Assembly: GCA_003671275.1 (NCBI GenBank)
Contig: QWPB01000077.1
Span: 62,001 to 126,000, forward strand
DNA: 64,000 nt
Direction: 5' to 3'
Origin: Planctomycetota bacterium
Lineage (GTDB): Bacteria; Planctomycetota; Planctomycetia; Planctomycetales; Planctomycetaceae
Every line of letters begins with the position of its first letter. The stretch's first letter is position 1. The translations under genes and the position numbers were made by a program. Positions 7,388 through 15,498 of the stretch are shown here, piece after piece. Below the pieces are notes generated by a model. It saw only the letters and a program-made list of their open reading frames with translations. It did not search any database and was not told the DNA's origin.

Positions 7388-8107
7388 CTATTTCGCCCCC
7401 GTAAAAGAGCTGATGGTGTTCTTGAGTTCGAAGTAGCTCCGCCCCGTCGGGTCGATGGCAATGCAGTTGAGCCGCAGCTGTTCGCGGGAGGACTGCACAT
7501 CGGCGGGGTTCGAGACGGGGACCGCACGCACCTTGTCGTGACGGTTGGCCCGGCAGGCGGCGCGGAAGTGCTGTTTGGCGAGAATGACCACGCCGGCCGA
7601 TTCGCCGCGACAGATCGCGCTGATCGCCAGCGTGGCCGCATCATCGGGACAGCCGAGAATCTCGCGGCTCCAACTGGTCCCGAGTTCGCTCGTCAGCCGC
7701 GACACAGCGGGCGAACTGGTCACGGTGATCAGCTTCCAGGAAGTGATCCCCGGAGCACCTGGACTGGGCGAGGCTTTCGGTCCGGCAGCACTGGCTCGAA
7801 TCAACTGGGCCTTGCTGGCCTTGAGAAAGTCATGTGCCGTCGGAGTGAGGATCGCTTTATCGGGCACAACGATCTGCGTGGCCCCGACGGCTTTCTCGGC
7901 GAGCAGGTCGCCGGTGATGACGCGGTCGGAGAGATGAGAGACGAGAGGTGAGGGATGAGTGATCGGAGGTTGAGCCACCGACTGACGCTGCTCATTCACT
8001 AACCTCTCACCACTCACCACTAACCCCTTCGGCGCAGCCGCAATCGTCGCACTGAGTTGCCTCAGCACGTTAGCGACGATCTGGTCGACGGCGGTCGAAT
8101 CGAGCAT
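7388..8107 (-). CDS. BMC-locus cargo-like protein; EutT-like motif and RpiB-like C-terminal domain
   Basis: A 239-residue protein with no certain family. Residues 1-20 (LDSTAVDQIVANVLRQLSA) form an amphipathic helix like the encapsulation peptides of the aldehyde dehydrogenase and PduL here, so it is probably lumenal. Residues ~28-60 are low complexity and are encoded by an inverted heptad-repeat element. Residues ~63-104 (VITGDLL, then ILTPTAHDFLKASKAQLIR) resemble the N-terminal motif of EutT-type BMC proteins. Residues ~155-225 follow the RpiB/LacAB isomerase pattern: PDDAATLAISAICRGE, GVVILAK, RANRHDKVRAVPVSNPADV, REQLRLNCIAI. The usual catalytic Cys-Gly-Thr-Gly-type loop is not kept. Function is not known. 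Confidence 0.75.
   Translation of the reverse strand: MLDSTAVDQIVANVLRQLSATIAAAPKGLVVSGERLVNEQRQSVAQPPITHPSPLVSHLSDRVITGDLLAEKAVGATQIVVPDKAILTPTAHDFLKASKAQLIRASAAGPKASPSPGAPGITSWKLITVTSSPAVSRLTSELGTSWSREILGCPDDAATLAISAICRGESAGVVILAKQHFRAACRANRHDKVRAVPVSNPADVQSSREQLRLNCIAIDPTGRSYFELKNTISSFTGAK
7929..8027. repeat. Inverted heptad-repeat element inside a coding linker
   Basis: The left arm (about 7929-7963) and right arm (about 7994-8027) are imperfect inverted copies of tandem 7-bp units of the form CTCACCN/CTAACCN. They surround a ~30-bp centre. The element is translated in frame as residues ~28-60 of the BMC cargo-like protein. The same heptads occur in the gaps at 8108-8140 and 10015-10045. 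Confidence 0.6.
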
Positions 8108-8184
8108 GGGAGAATGGTGAGTGGTTAGAGGTGAGTGAGGGCTTGCTGGCTGATTGCTGAAAGCTGATGACTGATTGCTATGAC
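8108..8184. repeat. Intergenic heptad repeats (two sub-repeat types)
   Basis: This 77-bp gap between two operon genes is almost wholly built from 7-bp tandem units. On the minus strand the order is a block of nnnTCAG units, then a block of CTCACCN/CTAACCN units running up to the next ATG. There is no clear purine-rich ribosome binding site before that ATG. Confidence 0.5.
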
Positions 8185-8439: not shown

Positions 8440-8460
8440 GACTGTTGTTCACGGGAAATA

Positions 8461-8527
8461 GCGAGCGGCAGACGTTAGTCTGCCGTGATTAGCGAGGTTT
8501 CACGGCAGACTAACGTCTGCCGCTCGC
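8461..8527. repeat. Perfect 27-bp inverted repeat between two BMC genes
   Basis: Positions 8461-8487 and 8501-8527 are exact reverse complements around a 13-nt loop. Each arm holds a nested near-palindrome (GGCAGACGTTAGTCTGCC). The right arm ends 3 bp from the aldehyde dehydrogenase stop codon. It could form a very stable RNA hairpin or be a miniature inverted-repeat element. No T-run follows, so simple termination is not obvious. Confidence 0.8.
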
Positions 8528-8529
8528 TG

Positions 8530-10061: not shown

Positions 10062-10562
10062 CTAGCCCACGGGTCGCTCATCCTCGTGAGCCCCGTTCTC
10101 GTCGAGCCATTGCTCGATTCGCATCTTCGATGGGATGTGGTTCAGCATCAGACCGACTAGAAACACCGCGATGGCCAGTGACCACCAGTGGTGTTCCGTC
10201 ATGATGGTGAAGATCACGAATAGAGTGGCTCCTTCGAGCAGGGCCACGGCGATGATCGTCTTCGTCATGTAGGCTTGCAGGAACGTCGGGCGGTCGCCGT
10301 TCGCGTTGCGGGTCGCGGCCTGGGCCACGATCGGCGGAATCACGAACGACAGCAGCGTGTTCGTGAGGGCCATCCCCGCTGCCATCAAGCTCAACTGCAT
10401 CTCCTTGGCGGGCTTATTGAAGGCCCCCGTGAAGACGACGAACGCTCCAAACATGACGCAGCCCATCACCAACGCAGCGACGATAATCGTCAGTAGCGTC
10501 GCCACCTTCCCGGGATCGGTCGGCTTTGGCTGGTTCTGATTTTGCGGGATGATGGGGAACAT
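10062..10562 (-). CDS. Four-helix membrane protein of the microcompartment operon, unknown function
   Basis: A 166-residue protein that I do not recognise. Four hydrophobic segments are clear: ~18-45 ([19 protein letters not shown]), ~58-80 ([19 protein letters not shown]), ~97-115 ([19 protein letters not shown]) and ~120-140 ([15 protein letters not shown]). The N-terminus is Pro/Gln-rich and the C-terminus acidic, both probably cytoplasmic. The start at 10562 is set by a good ribosome binding site, AAGGAGG about 7 bp upstream on the minus strand; the frame to 10607 lacks one. Its place inside a BMC operon suggests a role in substrate entry or product exit, but that is inference. Confidence 0.75.
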
Positions 10563-10612
10563 GCGGGGCCTCCTTTCTCGGAACGCCCACGGGGGGCTTA
10601 GGCTCACTCTTC

Positions 10613-10650
10613 ACTGATGACTGACCACTGAAGACTGACTACTTCCCTCA
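10613..10650. repeat. ACTGANN heptad block at a stop codon
   Basis: Four clean 7-bp units (ACTGATG, ACTGACC, ACTGAAG, ACTGACT) are followed by ACTTCCC and then the stop codon of the upstream BMC-P gene (minus strand). The same arrangement, stop codon then GGGAAGT then TCAGTNN units, occurs at 14711-14748. Confidence 0.6.
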
Positions 10651-10959
10651 CTCGTGATTCTTGAAGATCGTCGTATCCCCGACCGTCACCGTGTCGACGA
10701 TTCCGATGATCGTGCAGTCGACCGGCAGCTTCTTGGTCTCGTCCGTGAACCGGGCACTAGACCCCTGAACGATCAACACCACCTCGCCCTCTCCCGCCCC
10801 GACGACATCGACGCTGATGAAGGAGCGACCGGTCCCAACGAGTTCCCCCTTGGTCTTCTCGTTGACGCGGAGTGGTTCCACGACGACCAGCTTCTGGCCG
10901 ATCATGGAGTCGACTTTGGTCGAGGCGACGACCGAGCCAGTGATTCTTGCGAGGAACAT
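10648..10959 (-). CDS. BMC-P shell vertex protein (EutN/CcmL family)
   Basis: A 103-residue EutN/CcmL protein: MFLARITGSVVASTKVDSMIGQKLVVVEPL at the N-terminus and DVVGAGEGEVVLIVQGSSAR as the conserved glycine loop, ending VDCTIIGIVDTVTV. I set the start at 10959. The longer frame to 11004 is rejected because its extra residues (SPCLRASVV) are only the translation of the CACGGAGG inverted repeat next to it. A 17-residue tail after the last strand is unlike the other two copies. It lies downstream of acetate kinase and the inserted GxxExxY cassette. Confidence 0.92.
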   Translation of the reverse strand: MFLARITGSVVASTKVDSMIGQKLVVVEPLRVNEKTKGELVGTGRSFISVDVVGAGEGEVVLIVQGSSARFTDETKKLPVDCTIIGIVDTVTVGDTTIFKNHE

Positions 10960-10965
10960 GAGATT

Positions 10966-11410
10966 GACCACGGAGGCACGGAGGCACGGAGAAGAAAGGG
11001 TCACAGGACTCGTCTGTGAATTCCGTCTTTGAGTGTCTCGCAGTTGAAGTTGATGAGCAGTCCGACTTTGATCTGACTGATGCGGAGGTAAGTCAGGAGT
11101 TGAGCTTCGTGGACGGGGTTGATGGCTTCAATGGCCTTGAGTTCCAGTAGCACGCAAGCTTCGACGAGAAGGTCAGCCCGGTAACCACAGTCGAGTCGAA
11201 TTCGTTTGTAACGAACCGGAAGTTCCAGCTGCCGCTGAAACTTCAACCCCGCTTGACTCAACTCGTAGCACAGGCATTCCTCGTAAGCATTCTCCAGTAG
11301 CCCCGGCCCCAGTTCCCGATGAACTTCGATCGCTGCTCCAATGATCCTCGAAGTGATGTCGGCATGAATCAGACTCCCTTCCATCTCCGTGCCTCCGTGC
11401 CTCCGTGGTC
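10966..11410. mobile_element. Putative cassette: GxxExxY gene bounded by perfect 26-bp inverted repeats
   Basis: Positions 10966-10991 and 11385-11410 are exact reverse complements. Each arm is a run of 8-bp CACGGAGG units after a GACCA cap. Between them lies just one gene, whose ATG follows the right arm with no spacing and whose stop is 10 bp from the left arm. The 445-bp unit sits between the acetate kinase stop and a BMC-P start, breaking no operon gene. No transposase is present, and I see no clear target duplication. Confidence 0.7.
11001..11384 (-). CDS. GxxExxY family protein (PDDEXK-like nuclease fold)
   Basis: A 127-residue member of the GxxExxY family (TIGR04256; PDDEXK_3-like). 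The hallmark motif is in GPGLLENAYEECLCYEL; the conserved HRELGPG, LDCGYRADLLVEACVLLELKAIEAI (matching the D-x-E-x-K core of the nuclease fold), HEAQLLTYLR and VGLLINFN follow in order. Length is full for the family. Members are scattered in planctomycete and verrucomicrobial genomes and have no proven function. The ATG directly abuts a CACGGAG repeat arm, whose GGAG is too close for a normal ribosome binding site. It interrupts an otherwise metabolic operon, so it is probably an insertion. Confidence 0.85.
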   Translation of the reverse strand: MEGSLIHADITSRIIGAAIEVHRELGPGLLENAYEECLCYELSQAGLKFQRQLELPVRYKRIRLDCGYRADLLVEACVLLELKAIEAINPVHEAQLLTYLRISQIKVGLLINFNCETLKDGIHRRVL

Positions 11411-11433
11411 CACTTCCCCCTTTTGACCGTCAC

Positions 11434-12624
11434 TCAACATCCCCTGACCGCTTCCACGCTCTGGCGAGCAACCACGATCTCTTCATTGGTCGGCAACGTC
11501 CAAATTTGCGTCCGGCTGTCCGCCGTGCTCAGCTTAGCCTCACCCTTGGCGGTCTTGTTCAGCGACTCATCCAGCTTGATCCCGGCGAAGTCGAGGTTCT
11601 TCGTGGCGTGAGTTCGAACCCACTGGCTGTTCTCGCCGATGCCGCCGGTGAAGACGATCGCGTCGGCTCCGTTCAGCACGGTCAGGTAGGCCCCGATGTA
11701 CTGGCGGATGCTGGCGGCGAAGACGTTCATCGCGAGAGCGGCCCGAGCGTGGCCCTTCGCAGCTGCTTCTTCCAGGTCGCGGCAATCGGCGGACAATCCA
11801 CTGATGCCGAGGAGCCCGCTCTTGGACGAGAGGTCTTCCAGCACTTGCGGAAAGGTCTTGCCGGTCGCTCGCATGATGACCGGGATCGAGAAGGGGTCGA
11901 AGTCGCCCACGCGGTTGTTATGAGGCAACCCCGTCTGCGGCGTCATCCCCATCGAGGCCGATTGCGACACGCCGCCGACCATCGCACAGATCGAGTTGCT
12001 ACCGCCCAGGTGGCACGAAATGACCTTGAGGTCGCTACGTCCCAGAATCTGAGCGATCCGCGTCCCGATGTACCGATGGCTGGCCCCGTGATATCCCCAG
12101 CGGAGAATCCCGAGGTTCTCGGTCCACTCGTGAGGCACCGCATACGTTCGGTATTCCGCAGGCACCGTCTCGTGGAACCCTGTCTCCAGGGCCGCCACCA
12201 GTGGCATCTTCGGAAAGGCGGCGCGCAGTTGGCGCATCGCCCGGGCATACGGCGGGTTGTGAGCGGGGGCGACATCGGCCAGGGCCTCCATCGCATCCAG
12301 CAGTTCGTCGTTGACGATCCGCACTCCGCTCAGCTTGCCGGCGAAGACCGCCTTGAACCCGATGGCCGACACCTCTTCCACCGATTTGATGCAGCCGGTT
12401 TCGGGGTGGGTCAGCTGTTCGAGGCAGATCCGGACCGCTTCGGCGTGATCGGCGATCCGGCGGGAAACTTGCTCCCGCTTTCCGGCGATCTCAACAAAGC
12501 AGGTTCCCTCAGCATCCTGTCCGATCCGCTCGATGCCCCCGCGAGCCAGTTGGCTCTCGGTGGTCATGTCGTAGAGTCGGTACTTGAAGCTGGTGGAGCC
12601 GAGATTGGCAACAAGAACGAACAT
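11434..12624 (-). CDS. ackA: Acetate/propionate kinase of the microcompartment locus
   Basis: A 396-residue acetokinase-family enzyme that converts acyl-phosphate plus ADP to the carboxylate plus ATP. The N-terminal phosphate-binding motif is [38 protein letters not shown] and [13 protein letters not shown] are the other family signatures in the right order. In this locus it would take lactyl- or acetyl-phosphate made by PduL and recover ATP. There is no encapsulation peptide at either end. The start codon lies 2 bp from the end of the four-helix-bundle element upstream, so its translation signal may come from that element. Confidence 0.92.
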
Positions 12625-13061
12625 GGAAGTTCTCAGTGGTCAGTTTTCAGTCGTCAGTCTTTGTTTTCTGAACGCGTTGCATGAGTGCCGAAAGCATCCG
12701 CTTGATCTCGTGGACATCCTGAATCAGAGTCTGACTTTCATCCACCGAGAGGTAACCCAGATCAGTGGCTAGAATCAGGTGGTACTCTGTTTCGGAGGCG
12801 GAGCCTGCGGCGATCTGCAAGAAGCGACCAAAGTTGCCAGATGAGTGACCTCACCCCTCGGCGATGTTCGTCGGAACCGACGAACTGCTTCGTCGAATCT
12901 GACTCACCAGTCCATACAACTCGTCGCGTGGAAACGCAGCAGTTGTACGATAGATCGCGAGTGTCAGGGCGTGTGACTTCTTCCAGACCTGAAGTGAGCG
13001 AAAGTCTTGCATTCACTCACCTCTCAGACTGACTACTGACAACTGAGGACTGAAAACTTCA
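12625..13061. mobile_element. Putative cassette: four-helix-bundle pseudogene bounded by inverted TCAGTNN heptads
   Basis: The arms 12626-12660 and 13026-13060 are inverted copies, 30 of 35 positions matching, each made of GAAGTT plus four TCAGTNN units. The element fills the gap exactly: the BMC-H stop codon is at 13062-13064 and the acetate kinase ATG at 12624. It holds one four-helix-bundle gene, now broken, and its stop codon lies inside the left arm. Confidence 0.65.
12647..13012 (-). pseudogene. Four-helix-bundle (S23/IVS-type) protein gene with one in-frame TGA
   Basis: Translating 13012 to 12647 gives 121 codons of a four-helix-bundle protein (TIGR02436 type): MQDFRSLQVWKKSHALTLAI, DELYGLVSQIRRSSSSVPTNIAEG, then a TGA (12851-12853, codon 54), then FGRFLQIAAGSASETEYHL and LGYLSVDESQTLIQDVHEIKRMLSAL to a normal stop. 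The family usually has Cys or Ser at the TGA position (IAEGCG or IAEGSG), either one base from TGA. Everything after the TGA is intact, so the break is recent or read through. Such genes are known from intervening sequences of 23S rRNA genes and as scattered single genes; function is unknown. Confidence 0.85.
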
Positions 13062-13328
13062 CTAGATGAAGTTCTTCATCAAGCCGGCTTCCGGGCGAGG
13101 GATCACGTGCGAGGAGATCAGCTCGCCGACCTTGGCCGCGGCGGCGGCTCCGGCATCAACGGCGGCGCGGACGGAGCCGACATCGCCCTTGATGACGGTG
13201 GTGATGTACGCACCGCCGATGGGGATCTGCTTGACGAGGGTGACGTTCGCAGCTTTGAGCATGGCGTCGGCAGCTTCGATCTGCGCGATCATGCCCTTGG
13301 TTTCAACGAGACCGATGGCATCGTTCAT
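13062..13328 (-). CDS. BMC-H shell hexamer protein
   Basis: An 88-residue single BMC-domain protein (PduA/CcmK/EutM family) that tiles the shell facets as hexamers. The pattern is canonical: IGLVETKGMIAQIEAADAMLKAANV, GGAYITTVIKGDVGSVRAAVDAGAAAA and ISSHVIPRPEAGL. The pore loop falls around KQIPIGGAY. It pairs with the adjacent BMC-H gene upstream, the usual two-BMC-H arrangement of PVM loci, and no BMC-T gene is seen. Its stop codon directly borders the inverted-repeat cassette that separates it from acetate kinase. Confidence 0.95.
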   Translation of the reverse strand: MNDAIGLVETKGMIAQIEAADAMLKAANVTLVKQIPIGGAYITTVIKGDVGSVRAAVDAGAAAAAKVGELISSHVIPRPEAGLMKNFI

Positions 13329-13431
13329 GAGGTGGCCTTTGGCGAATGGCTGATGGCAAATGGCCAGCAGCGCTGTGAAAGGGATGTTAGCCGTCGAGCT
13401 CGCTCGACGTGCCAGCGAAACGAAGGATCAA

Positions 13432-13740
13432 CTAAGCCGGTGACTTGGCGGGAGCCGAGACTTTCGACTTCGGAATGACCGAGGCGAGTTCATCGTGCGG
13501 GCGAGGAATCACCTGCACGCTGACGACATCGCCGACCTTACCAGCCGCGCTGGCACCGGCGTCCACTGCGGCCTTGACCGCGGCGACGTCACCGACAAAG
13601 AAGCCGGTGACCAGACCGCTGCCGATCTTGTCCCAGCTGAGCATTTGGACGTTCGCGGCCTTGAGGGCAGCGTCCGACGCTTCGATGAGGGCGATGAGAC
13701 CTTTGGTCTCGATCATGCCCAGGGCTTCCATTTTGGCCAT
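13432..13740 (-). CDS. BMC-H shell hexamer protein with extended C-terminus
   Basis: A 102-residue BMC-domain protein: [54 protein letters not shown] and [19 protein letters not shown]. The pore loop (SWDKIGSGL) differs from the second BMC-H, so the two hexamers should have different pores. The start at 13740 has GGAGATAA upstream; the frame to 13812 is rejected because its added residues translate the CACGGAG repeat. The Ser/Ala/Lys/Pro tail of about 15 residues is absent from the partner. It is the first shell gene after PduL. Confidence 0.95.
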
Positions 13741-13767
13741 TGGGTTATCTCCAGGGGGGGGGATTTT

Positions 13768-13913
13768 CACCACGGAGGCACGGAGACACGGAGGTGAGTC
13801 CGAAGTCTTCATTCATTCGTGGAACAGGGGTGGTGTCCGCATGGGTCAAGGGAGGGAGGAACGAGGCGGAACCGTCTCTCATTTCCTCTCCGTGTCTCTG
13901 TGTCTCCGTGGTG
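13768..13913. mobile_element. MITE-like non-coding element with CACGGAG inverted ends
   Basis: Arms 13768-13793 and 13888-13913 are inverted copies with two mismatches, made of the same CACGGAG(G) 8-bp units as the GxxExxY cassette. The ~94 bp between them has no gene. It lies between BMC-H and PduL, with its right end 2 bp from the PduL stop codon. It looks like a gene-less relative of the 10966-11410 cassette. Confidence 0.65.
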
Positions 13914-13915
13914 AA

Positions 13916-14614
13916 TCAATGCTTGTGACAAGCACAATCCACGGCTTTGAGCAGCTCGACTTTCGTCGCGTGTTCGAGGTCCACCGCGTTGCCTTCATCC
14001 GTGTCGAGGTGAACTTCCAGCTTGATCTTGTCGTCACCGCCGCGAACCTTCAGGTTCTCCAGAACCGTCGTGCAGCTCGGGGACTCGATGCGGAGGTGCA
14101 TCGCGTCACCGTTCTTCACGCCGTAGAAGGCCATCTCGGCGGGGTTCATGTGAACGTGACGCATCGCGCGGATCACGCCTTGGCTCAGTTCCAAGCTGCC
14201 CACCGGACCGACGAGGAGGGCCGCTGCGGAGCCCTTCACATCGCCGCTGATCCGCACGGGGAGATCGAGTCCCAGCGAGATCGAATCGGTGAAGGCGAGT
14301 TCGACTTGCGAGTCACCACGACACGGGCCGAGGACGCGGACCTCGGGCAGCATCCGGCGACGCGGGCCGACGATCGCAACCGTCTCTTCGGCGGCGAAGT
14401 AGCCCTCTTGGTAAAGCCACTTCTTGGGGGTCAGCTGGTGCCCCTTGCCAAAGAGGATCTCGACATGCTCCTGGGTCAGGTGGCAATGCCGAGCCGAGAT
14501 GTTCACGACGAGCGGATTCGGCTTGGTGGCCGGAACCACAGAGCCATTGCCGCCCATCTGAACCATCAGAACATCGCGAACGATGCGTTCGACATCTGTG
14601 CGGGTGATGGACAT
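13916..14614 (-). CDS. pduL: PduL-type phosphotransacylase, BMC cargo
   Basis: A 232-residue PduL (Pfam PTAC) protein, the BMC-specific phosphotransacylase unrelated to Pta. It transfers the acyl group from CoA to phosphate, regenerating CoA inside the compartment. Zinc-ligand histidines are in SARHCHLT (H43, H45) and MRHVHMNP (H153, H155), the positions expected in the family. Residues 1-20 ([19 protein letters not shown]) form the N-terminal encapsulation peptide, followed by a Gly/Pro linker. The tail DCACHKH adds extra Cys and His, which may bind metal. It is the first structural gene after the regulator. Confidence 0.94.
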
Positions 14615-14748
14615 GTGTCGAGAATCTCTCCGTTGTGAGTTTTCTGTTGTCAGCGAGAAGTGCTCAGCTCTCAGTCATCAGTTTTCAGCCAGAAAAGCAC
14701 TGCATCTCTGACTGAAAACGGATGACTAACCACTGACAACTTCCCTCA
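14615..14748. repeat. Gene-less inverted TCAGTNN heptad element
   Basis: Heptads at ~14664-14690 face an inverted set at ~14710-14742, separated by about 20 bp. The right end reads, on the minus strand, stop codon of the DeoR gene, GGGAAGT, then TCAGTNN units, as at 10613-10650. About 24 of 32 arm positions match. Confidence 0.55.
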
Positions 14749-15498
14749 CTCGGCGATCACCAGCTCGATCCCGTTCTTTCGAACGATATCTCGCCAGCGG
14801 TCGCTCAATCCGCTGTCGACCACCAATTTGTGAACCCGGTTGAGCGGACACAACGGGACCAGTTCGGAGTGGCCGAACTTGCTGCTGTCGGTGGCCAGGA
14901 TCACTTCATCGGCAGCATCGAGCATCTGCTTCTGGGTTTCGACGAGGAGCGAGTTCTGATTGAACAGCCCTTCTTCCGTGATTCCTCCAACGCCGATGAT
15001 CAGCCGCCGCACCTTCAGAGATTTGAGAGCGGCCTCCGTCAGCGGACCAAGGACCACTCCGGTTCGCGGATAGAGAAACCCCCCCAGCACCACCAACTCG
15101 ACCCCCGGCACCGACATCAGATGGTTCATAATCGGCACCGAATTGGTGACGACCTGAACCCCTTTGCCAGCCAGATGTTTCGCCACGTGGAGAGTTGTCG
15201 TTCCGCCATCCAGAAGGATCGTCTCGCCCGTTTGGATCAGCTCAGCCACCCTCTTCCCGACCCGTTGCTTCTCGTTAAGGGCCTGGTTTTGCCGGTCATC
15301 GAAGGCCGGTAAGGCCTCGCCGACGCCTGCAGCACCGCCGCGAGTGCGCCGAATCTGTCCAGTTCGATCAAGATACTCCAAATCCCGCCGAACAGTGCTT
15401 TCACTGACTCCCACAGACTCAGCGATCTCGTGAAGGCTGACGAAACCCTTGTTTTCTATGAATTCCCGAATGTTGCCACGTCGTTGGTCGAGCAACAT
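14746..15498 (-). CDS. DeoR-family transcriptional regulator of the microcompartment operon
   Basis: A 250-residue DeoR regulator. The N-terminal winged HTH is clear: LLDQRRGNIREFIENKGFVSLHEIAESVGVSESTVRRDLEYLDRTGQIRRTRGGA. The C-terminal DeoRC sugar-phosphate sensor domain follows, with ILLDGGTTTLHVAKHL, VVTNSVPIMNHL, GGFLYPRTGVVLGPL, GVGGI and VILATDSSKFG. I set the start at 15498 (MLLDQRRG), not 15546, to match the family. As first gene of the operon it probably represses the locus and is released by a sugar-phosphate intermediate. A 17-bp palindrome at 15591-15607 is a candidate operator. Confidence 0.9.
   Translation of the reverse strand: MLLDQRRGNIREFIENKGFVSLHEIAESVGVSESTVRRDLEYLDRTGQIRRTRGGAAGVGEALPAFDDRQNQALNEKQRVGKRVAELIQTGETILLDGGTTTLHVAKHLAGKGVQVVTNSVPIMNHLMSVPGVELVVLGGFLYPRTGVVLGPLTEAALKSLKVRRLIIGVGGITEEGLFNQNSLLVETQKQMLDAADEVILATDSSKFGHSELVPLCPLNRVHKLVVDSGLSDRWRDIVRKNGIELVIAE

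Follow-up and report, generated by a model that had tools for sequence, protein, structure and literature searches.

A palindromic element beside pduL in a Planctomycetota genome, with arms shared by GxxExxY genes of distant bacteria

Many bacterial genomes contain palindromic repeats. MITEs are short, non-coding, dispersed elements with inverted ends; Rickettsia palindromic elements are inserted in frame in protein genes; IVSs, the intervening elements of rRNA genes, include short ones that carry no open reading frame. The S23p protein of IVSs is presumably of the four-helix-bundle type, which corresponds to a TIGR02436 cassette in the DNA analysed here and not to its GxxExxY gene. The IVS of Coxiella 23S rRNA (PMC4990558) is an element of ~430 nt with a 28-bp terminal stem and an S23p open reading frame inside. 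REPINs combine conserved ends with a spacer that varies while keeping its length and pairing, and show compensatory changes (PMC3116915). REP repeats carry a GTAG or a CGTC tag at one end, and those with CGTC are said to be without a dedicated transposase (PMC3733652).

The subject of this analysis is a gene-less element in a window of 64 kb (the whole stretch of DNA that was analysed). It resembles MITEs in being short, non-coding, inverted-ended and dispersed, and differs from them in that the interior is not shared with a parent and there is no known transposase parent; no target duplication was seen by eye. IVSs are housed in rRNA genes and excised from the RNA, whereas this element is flanked by pduL and the gene for a BMC shell protein. 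With Rickettsia palindromic elements it shares the presence of palindromic repeats in frame inside protein genes, but the unit sequence and the companion gene are different. The likeness to REPIN/RAYT systems (PMC3116915, PMC3733652) extends to inverted conserved ends, a freer spacer, compensatory changes, a small companion gene within the same repeats, and the occurrence of singles as well as doublets in both orientations. The differences are that the arms here are tandem 8-bp units rather than GTAG/CGTC-tagged stem-loops, and that the companion is a protein of PD-(D/E)XK fold rather than the HUH/Y1 transposase that RAYT is; copy number in the genome of origin also appears low. The gene-less element is neither a member of the REP/RAYT family nor a classical MITE. 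The reading preferred here, at a probability of about 0.45, is that it belongs to a dispersed palindromic family whose arms would be recognised by GxxExxY, the protein that would also drive its mobilisation.

Anatomy and setting of the gene-less element

Table 1. Coordinates of the gene-less element, the GxxExxY cassette and neighbouring genes in the window
Feature	Position	Strand	Remark
Left arm of gene-less element	13766..13793	+	TTCAC + three 8-bp CACNGAG-type units
Interior of gene-less element	13794..13887	.	94 nt, non-coding
Right arm of gene-less element	13888..13915	-	inverted; touches pduL stop codon
pduL	13916..14614	-	phosphate propanoyltransferase; upstream neighbour in transcript
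BMC shell gene	13432..13740	-	lies downstream; start placed from homologues (MAKMEALG)
Left arm of GxxExxY cassette	10964..10991	+	2/28 differences vs left arm of gene-less element
GxxExxY gene	11001..11384	-	TIGR04256, PF13366 PDDEXK_3, 127 aa
Right arm of GxxExxY cassette	11385..11412	-	directly upstream of gene's ATG

The element (Table 1) occupies positions 13766-13915 of the window, ~150 bases, and is palindromic: its two arms of 28 nt, separated by 94 nt, are complementary at 26/28 positions, each with three units of the form CACNGAGN following TTCAC. Read as TTCACCACGGAG...CACGGAG, the arm has no GTAG/CGTC tag at its end. The first-pass annotation had recognised a gene-less CACGGAG element at 13768-13913; the element is real and its true span is 2 nt longer at each end. 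It had also been placed 2 bp from the pduL stop codon (TGA, minus strand, 13916-13918), and it does lie beside that codon, except that the full right arm directly abuts it. At the other end, the longer open frame of the BMC shell gene, reaching 13812, is arm-derived sequence. The gene-bearing relative, the GxxExxY cassette, spans 10964-11412 (449 bp) at a distance of 2.35 kb, close to the 2.4 kb first given, and its ends are indeed the same inverted 8-bp units. The two mismatches stated between the copies hold precisely in the left arms; between the right arms, 5/28 positions are different.

Pairs of 28-nt arms with at most two mismatches and at most 500 bp apart have only three centres in the window, those of the gene-less element and of the GxxExxY cassette and a third in a hairpin near 8494, and six first-order Markov random windows contained no comparable pair. 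Formally, the gene-less element has terminal inverted repeats; it is also a set of two conserved inverted repeats around a variable, pairing spacer. Within G000, the genome of origin, the interior has only chance-level matches, of 18-21 bases, and two congeners yield no match. Its derivation from a GxxExxY gene or from another repeat was rejected, as no match went beyond those 18-21 bases. As a possible remnant of the ancestral spacer, the interior aligns to the congeners' spacers with z of 1.7 and 1.6 at best, which 31 and 35 of 500 shuffles equalled.

As RNA, the element folds with -62.2 kcal/mol (z -5.8); Rfam matched nothing within 10500-15000. With so stable a fold the element may incidentally influence the microcompartment transcript, and one may suppose that it now works as a hairpin between cistrons, tuning the PduL:shell ratio through mRNA end protection or processing, and was retained for that, its origin being secondary. 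Its place between two same-strand genes of the microcompartment locus is consistent with that proposal, as is the frequency of TIGR02436 cassettes near pduL (9/67 matches within 6 kb, in 7 genomes, against 0.12 expected, with congeners not independent). Three observations make it improbable nonetheless: no T-run terminator was seen, by eye, 3' of the stem; sister copies exist elsewhere, also within genes; and the same gene pair in related bacteria is without the element. pduL is matched in 51/59 genomes, and in the 30 loci that were fetched, the one in the window included, the element is missing between pduL and the shell gene in 29/29 other genomes read; in two congeners the spacer measures 183 and 185 bp, as against 178 here.

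Dispersed copies, gains and losses

The genome of origin (G000; 5.03 Mb, 198 contigs) was searched with a two-unit arm pattern and with the reversed pattern as control, yielding 54 places against 20 at up to two mismatches. Besides the window element there are seven gene-less pairs of about 127-225 bp, and there is one CACGGAG cassette. Measured end to end between 17-mers, the cassette spans 443 bp and the window element 144 bp; the other gene-less spans are 193 (contig C8), 172 (C37), 130 (C178), 219 (C3), 135 (C58) and 194 bp (C79), with a weak pair of about 127 bp at C15. The bimodality that had been anticipated for these distances is thus present: gene-less spans of 130-219 bp, a gap, and the gene-bearing 443 bp, so that the two proposed size classes do exist. 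The contrary expectation, random spacing and mostly single arms, fails with respect to spacing and retains some force with respect to single arms, which are common: at 0-1 mismatch, 10/21 places are without a nearby partner (two of these arms, at C19 and C152, being close to contig ends). Two further GxxExxY genes in G000 have different borders: CACAAAG/CACGAAG arms at C72 and, around C163, CGCAGAG-like repeats in which no clean arm pair was scored. A repeat of ~200 bp with CACGGAG ends and a shared interior is also found at C79, C152, C19 and C80 (L145, L027, L023, L036), two of its copies running into contig ends.

A second genome of the same class, G051, offers a larger set. Seventeen of the 20 regions fetched are gene-less CACAGAG pairs of 76-122 bp, and one is a GxxExxY cassette of 457 bp with the same arms; two other GxxExxY regions of that genome gave no match to this arm pattern. 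The arms of the 17 copies have a mean identity of 95%, whereas their interiors are nearly unrelated (similarity 0.28 vs 0.21 when shuffled). Left and right arm variants agree within copies more often than expected (245 vs 232, p 0.0002), to which subfamily structure may contribute, and the inner flanks agree as well (p 0.009). The narrow size class of these gene-less pairs bears on a further proposal, in which the arms serve as an operator or a self-mark: GxxExxY would bind there to regulate or protect its own gene, and pairs lacking a gene would be decoys or what is left of lost genes. The location of one window-cassette arm immediately before the ATG is in line with this, as is the abundance of single arms in the genome of origin, but pairs that form a size class of their own and hold no trace of a gene render this very unlikely.

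The genome designated G031 has 145 pattern places at no more than one mismatch, and its congeners have 50 (G060), 9 (G061) and 1 (G059). No CACGGAG-armed GxxExxY was found at the 6 genes examined of the 7 in G031, nor at the single one (1/1) in G060; the elements of these two genomes may move without a matched gene, may use a cross-reacting one, or may have lost theirs. Some G031 copies constitute subfamilies with common interiors and outer flanks. Two orientations of paired arms are seen there (L305-L324, L406-L424): +/- CACGGAG pairs, mostly of 59-81 bp with one of 51 bp, and -/+ pairs of 49-55 bp. Some CACGGAG arms of G031 are embedded in larger repeated palindromes with conserved outer flanks. 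Elsewhere (L085, in G039) a GxxExxY gene sits among repeated arm-bounded units, which on one side are ~221 bp apart.

The flanks of 14 elements of G031 and 5 of G000 were sought in congeners. Fifteen G031 comparisons, representing 11 elements, could be aligned; 13 of these sites are without arms (L305, among them, is poorly aligned) and 2/15 keep them, both in G060. At one of the two, L313, the interior is unrelated; at the other, L321, it resembles, by eye, the reverse complement. In a 16th comparison, L321 in G061, the arms are absent. Of the G000 elements, C37 is absent in G001; C8 has its left arm in common with G001, where unrelated sequence then follows; in G002 the C8 site meets a contig end, and the C15 site is without arms and poorly aligned. 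No target-site duplication was seen by eye at the congener sites compared, where junctions are not clean. The GxxExxY cassette of the window is at the same place in congener G001, and the gene-less copy is absent from the spacers of both congeners; on this comparison of sequences the gene-bearing copy appears to be the older.

Some copies lie within genes. Contig C8 has two copies, one full and one a single arm, in a single frame of 1719 codons for an Lhr-type helicase: in the solved Lhr structure 7lhl, which we take to be the mycobacterial protein, residues 232-302 of the query are missing, and 27 aa stand opposite its residues 732-886 (155 aa). A full gene-less copy is in frame in an ABC ATPase, between the P-loop region and the later ABC motifs, and an ileS frame has a single arm where the solved IleRS sequences have a shorter stretch. 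The arm copies in lhr, the ABC ATPase gene and ileS are read as probably tolerated in-frame insertions.

The GxxExxY protein, its arms and the other cassettes

The window's GxxExxY protein scores 159.5 bits against TIGR04256 (curated cut-off 35) and 152.4 bits against PF13366 (cut-off 22); D71 and E81-x-K83 are conserved. An AF2 model built from an alignment of 66 sequences has a mean pLDDT of 94.5. Foldseek relates the model to lambda exonuclease and SSO0001 (best E 2.6e-3), and a second structure comparison relates it to SSO0001 (Z 9.5, rmsd 4.4, 100 residues aligned), BamHI (Z 8.0, rmsd 3.2, 111 aligned) and archaeal Hjc (Z 6.8, rmsd 3.2, 86 aligned). These matches, together with the conserved D71 and E81-x-K83, assign the modelled protein to the PD-(D/E)XK nuclease fold and make it a putative nuclease. 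The GxxExxY profile has no sequence match in the PDB at E up to 1; there is no defence-system match in PADLOC, and PHROGs return a single weak match (E 0.027). Matches occur in 0/50,697 phage records and in 8/72,556 plasmid records. Searches of the open-licence literature in PubMed Central yielded no description of GxxExxY repeats and no role for the family, which is named in passing in PMC8934634 and PMC12085832.

The association of arms with GxxExxY genes is not confined to the relatives of this genome. Among the best 80 of 580 named GxxExxY loci across phyla (78 after two with short flanks had been dropped), inverted arms with a score of at least 15 and no more than 220 bp from the gene accompany 49/78, against 1/251 control positions in the same loci; arms at this threshold were not found in the other 29/78. 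In loci of related genomes the proportions are 36/42 and 0/84, and arms are present in 89/120 GxxExxY loci tested. A chance likeness of purine-rich, low-complexity arms, for which nothing speaks beyond the simplicity of the 8-bp units themselves, is refuted by the 49/78 against 1/251 and by the random windows empty of comparable pairs; its probability is practically nil. The units vary among loci (CACGGAG, CACAGAG, CGCAGAG, CACGAAG, CGCCAAG), and GYGFLE-type proteins have longer ones, for example CACGGATGAAA. Arm 4-mer similarity tracks protein identity (Mantel rho 0.22, p 0.004, over the 89 armed loci), also when G+C is allowed for.

Among 59 related genomes, at least 20 pattern hits occur in 11/35 with GxxExxY and in 0/24 without (Fisher p 0.0015; rank test p 4e-5); the reversed control, too, is in slight excess where GxxExxY is present (p 0.02). 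In the 11 genomes, a CACNGAG-armed cassette is present in G000, G001, G003, G024, G025, G035 and G051; in G017 the cassette arms are CGCGGAG; G002, 66% complete, has no such cassette at its one GxxExxY gene; and in G004 the single GxxExxY locus is truncated. A strict cognate rule, by which an element-rich genome always has a matching cassette, is rejected on the genes examined, for example in G031 (6 of its 7). RAYT was likewise considered as mobiliser of CACNGAG arms and rejected: 0/30 Y1_Tnp/RAYT loci of G000, G051, G031 and G060 have CACNGAG runs.

GxxExxY is not the only gene to be framed in this manner. At 12634-13059 of the window a four-helix-bundle gene (TIGR02436) that contains a single in-frame TGA is enclosed by inverted arms of 7-bp CAGTNNT units; an apparent gene-less pair of CAGTNNT units is found at ~14664-14742, between pduL and a DeoR-type gene, and a single arm of this type at 10613-10637. 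The window also has a perfect 29-bp inverted repeat of GCAGACGTTAGTCTGCCG type at 8460-8528 and a third type of tandem-unit arm, TCACTAACC/CTCACCAC, at 7996-8138. In 18 of 23 TIGR02436 loci (30 taken, 7 dropped as truncated) inverted arms with a unit period of 7 bp surround the gene, against 0/46 controls. These cassettes look like relatives of IVSs outside rRNA, with a plan that they share with GxxExxY cassettes, and the microcompartment locus would seem to be a hot spot for both kinds. A broken GxxExxY gene lies 1 kb from pduL in G013.

The shared plan, with its different unit, means that the GxxExxY gene may be cargo: a mobile palindrome would be moved by other machinery, with GxxExxY and the four-helix-bundle protein as passengers between the arms. 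The many gene-less CACGGAG elements of G031 and G060, where none of the genes examined lies in a CACGGAG cassette, and the G031 subfamilies that have interiors and outer flanks in common, agree with this. That arm sequence follows GxxExxY sequence across phyla does not, and neither do the RAYT loci, which have REP-type arms of their own (15/25) and none of the CACNGAG runs. Passenger status for GxxExxY is on balance rather unlikely.

How the elements might spread

In the preferred reading, with GxxExxY as the agent, each end of an element is an inverted arm with some three CACNGAG units of 8 bp in tandem, and the gene-bearing members of the family enclose GxxExxY. The protein would bind the arms, probably on a fold-back strand or an extruded palindrome, and would nick or cut there; host repair would then generate a copy at a new site. 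The interior would go unrecognised, only its length and rough self-complementarity being kept; since GxxExxY would not read it, it would be free to vary. The gene would be dispensable in cis, GxxExxY being supplied in trans, and the copy in the pduL-BMC spacer would in addition be transcribed, as a strong intercistronic hairpin.

The idea that a full-size and a short copy with shared ends form an autonomous/non-autonomous pair, as the first-pass annotation proposed, survives in part. The shared ends, the bimodal spacing in G000 and G051, the dispersed copies, their presence and absence in relatives and the link of arms to GxxExxY all favour it; GxxExxY would be the autonomous partner. Against it, the short copy is no internally deleted version of the gene-bearing copy, the interiors being unrelated to the gene and to one another; inspection by eye showed no target duplication; and in G031 and G060, for all their CACGGAG elements, the genes examined include no matching cassette. 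The anatomy is better described as REPIN-like than as a full-size and short transposon pair.

A broader proposal can be entertained, tentatively and with some doubt: GxxExxY proteins would be RAYT-independent mobilisers of palindromes, each with its own arm code, which copy any interior and have seeded many phyla, and the S23p-like four-helix-bundle cassettes would be a further class. What the data describe is a widespread gene family, GxxExxY, whose members in many phyla are linked with particular repeat arms, the arm sequence following that of the protein. Arms shared with GxxExxY genes in distant bacteria point to a little-noticed family of small repeats, which may be spread by a nuclease. 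Such a family would explain arm-derived peptides in translated frames of this genome, such as TTEARRHG and PCLRAS, and the question of what spreads repeats of this kind could be put to the test with a single small protein and a short piece of DNA.
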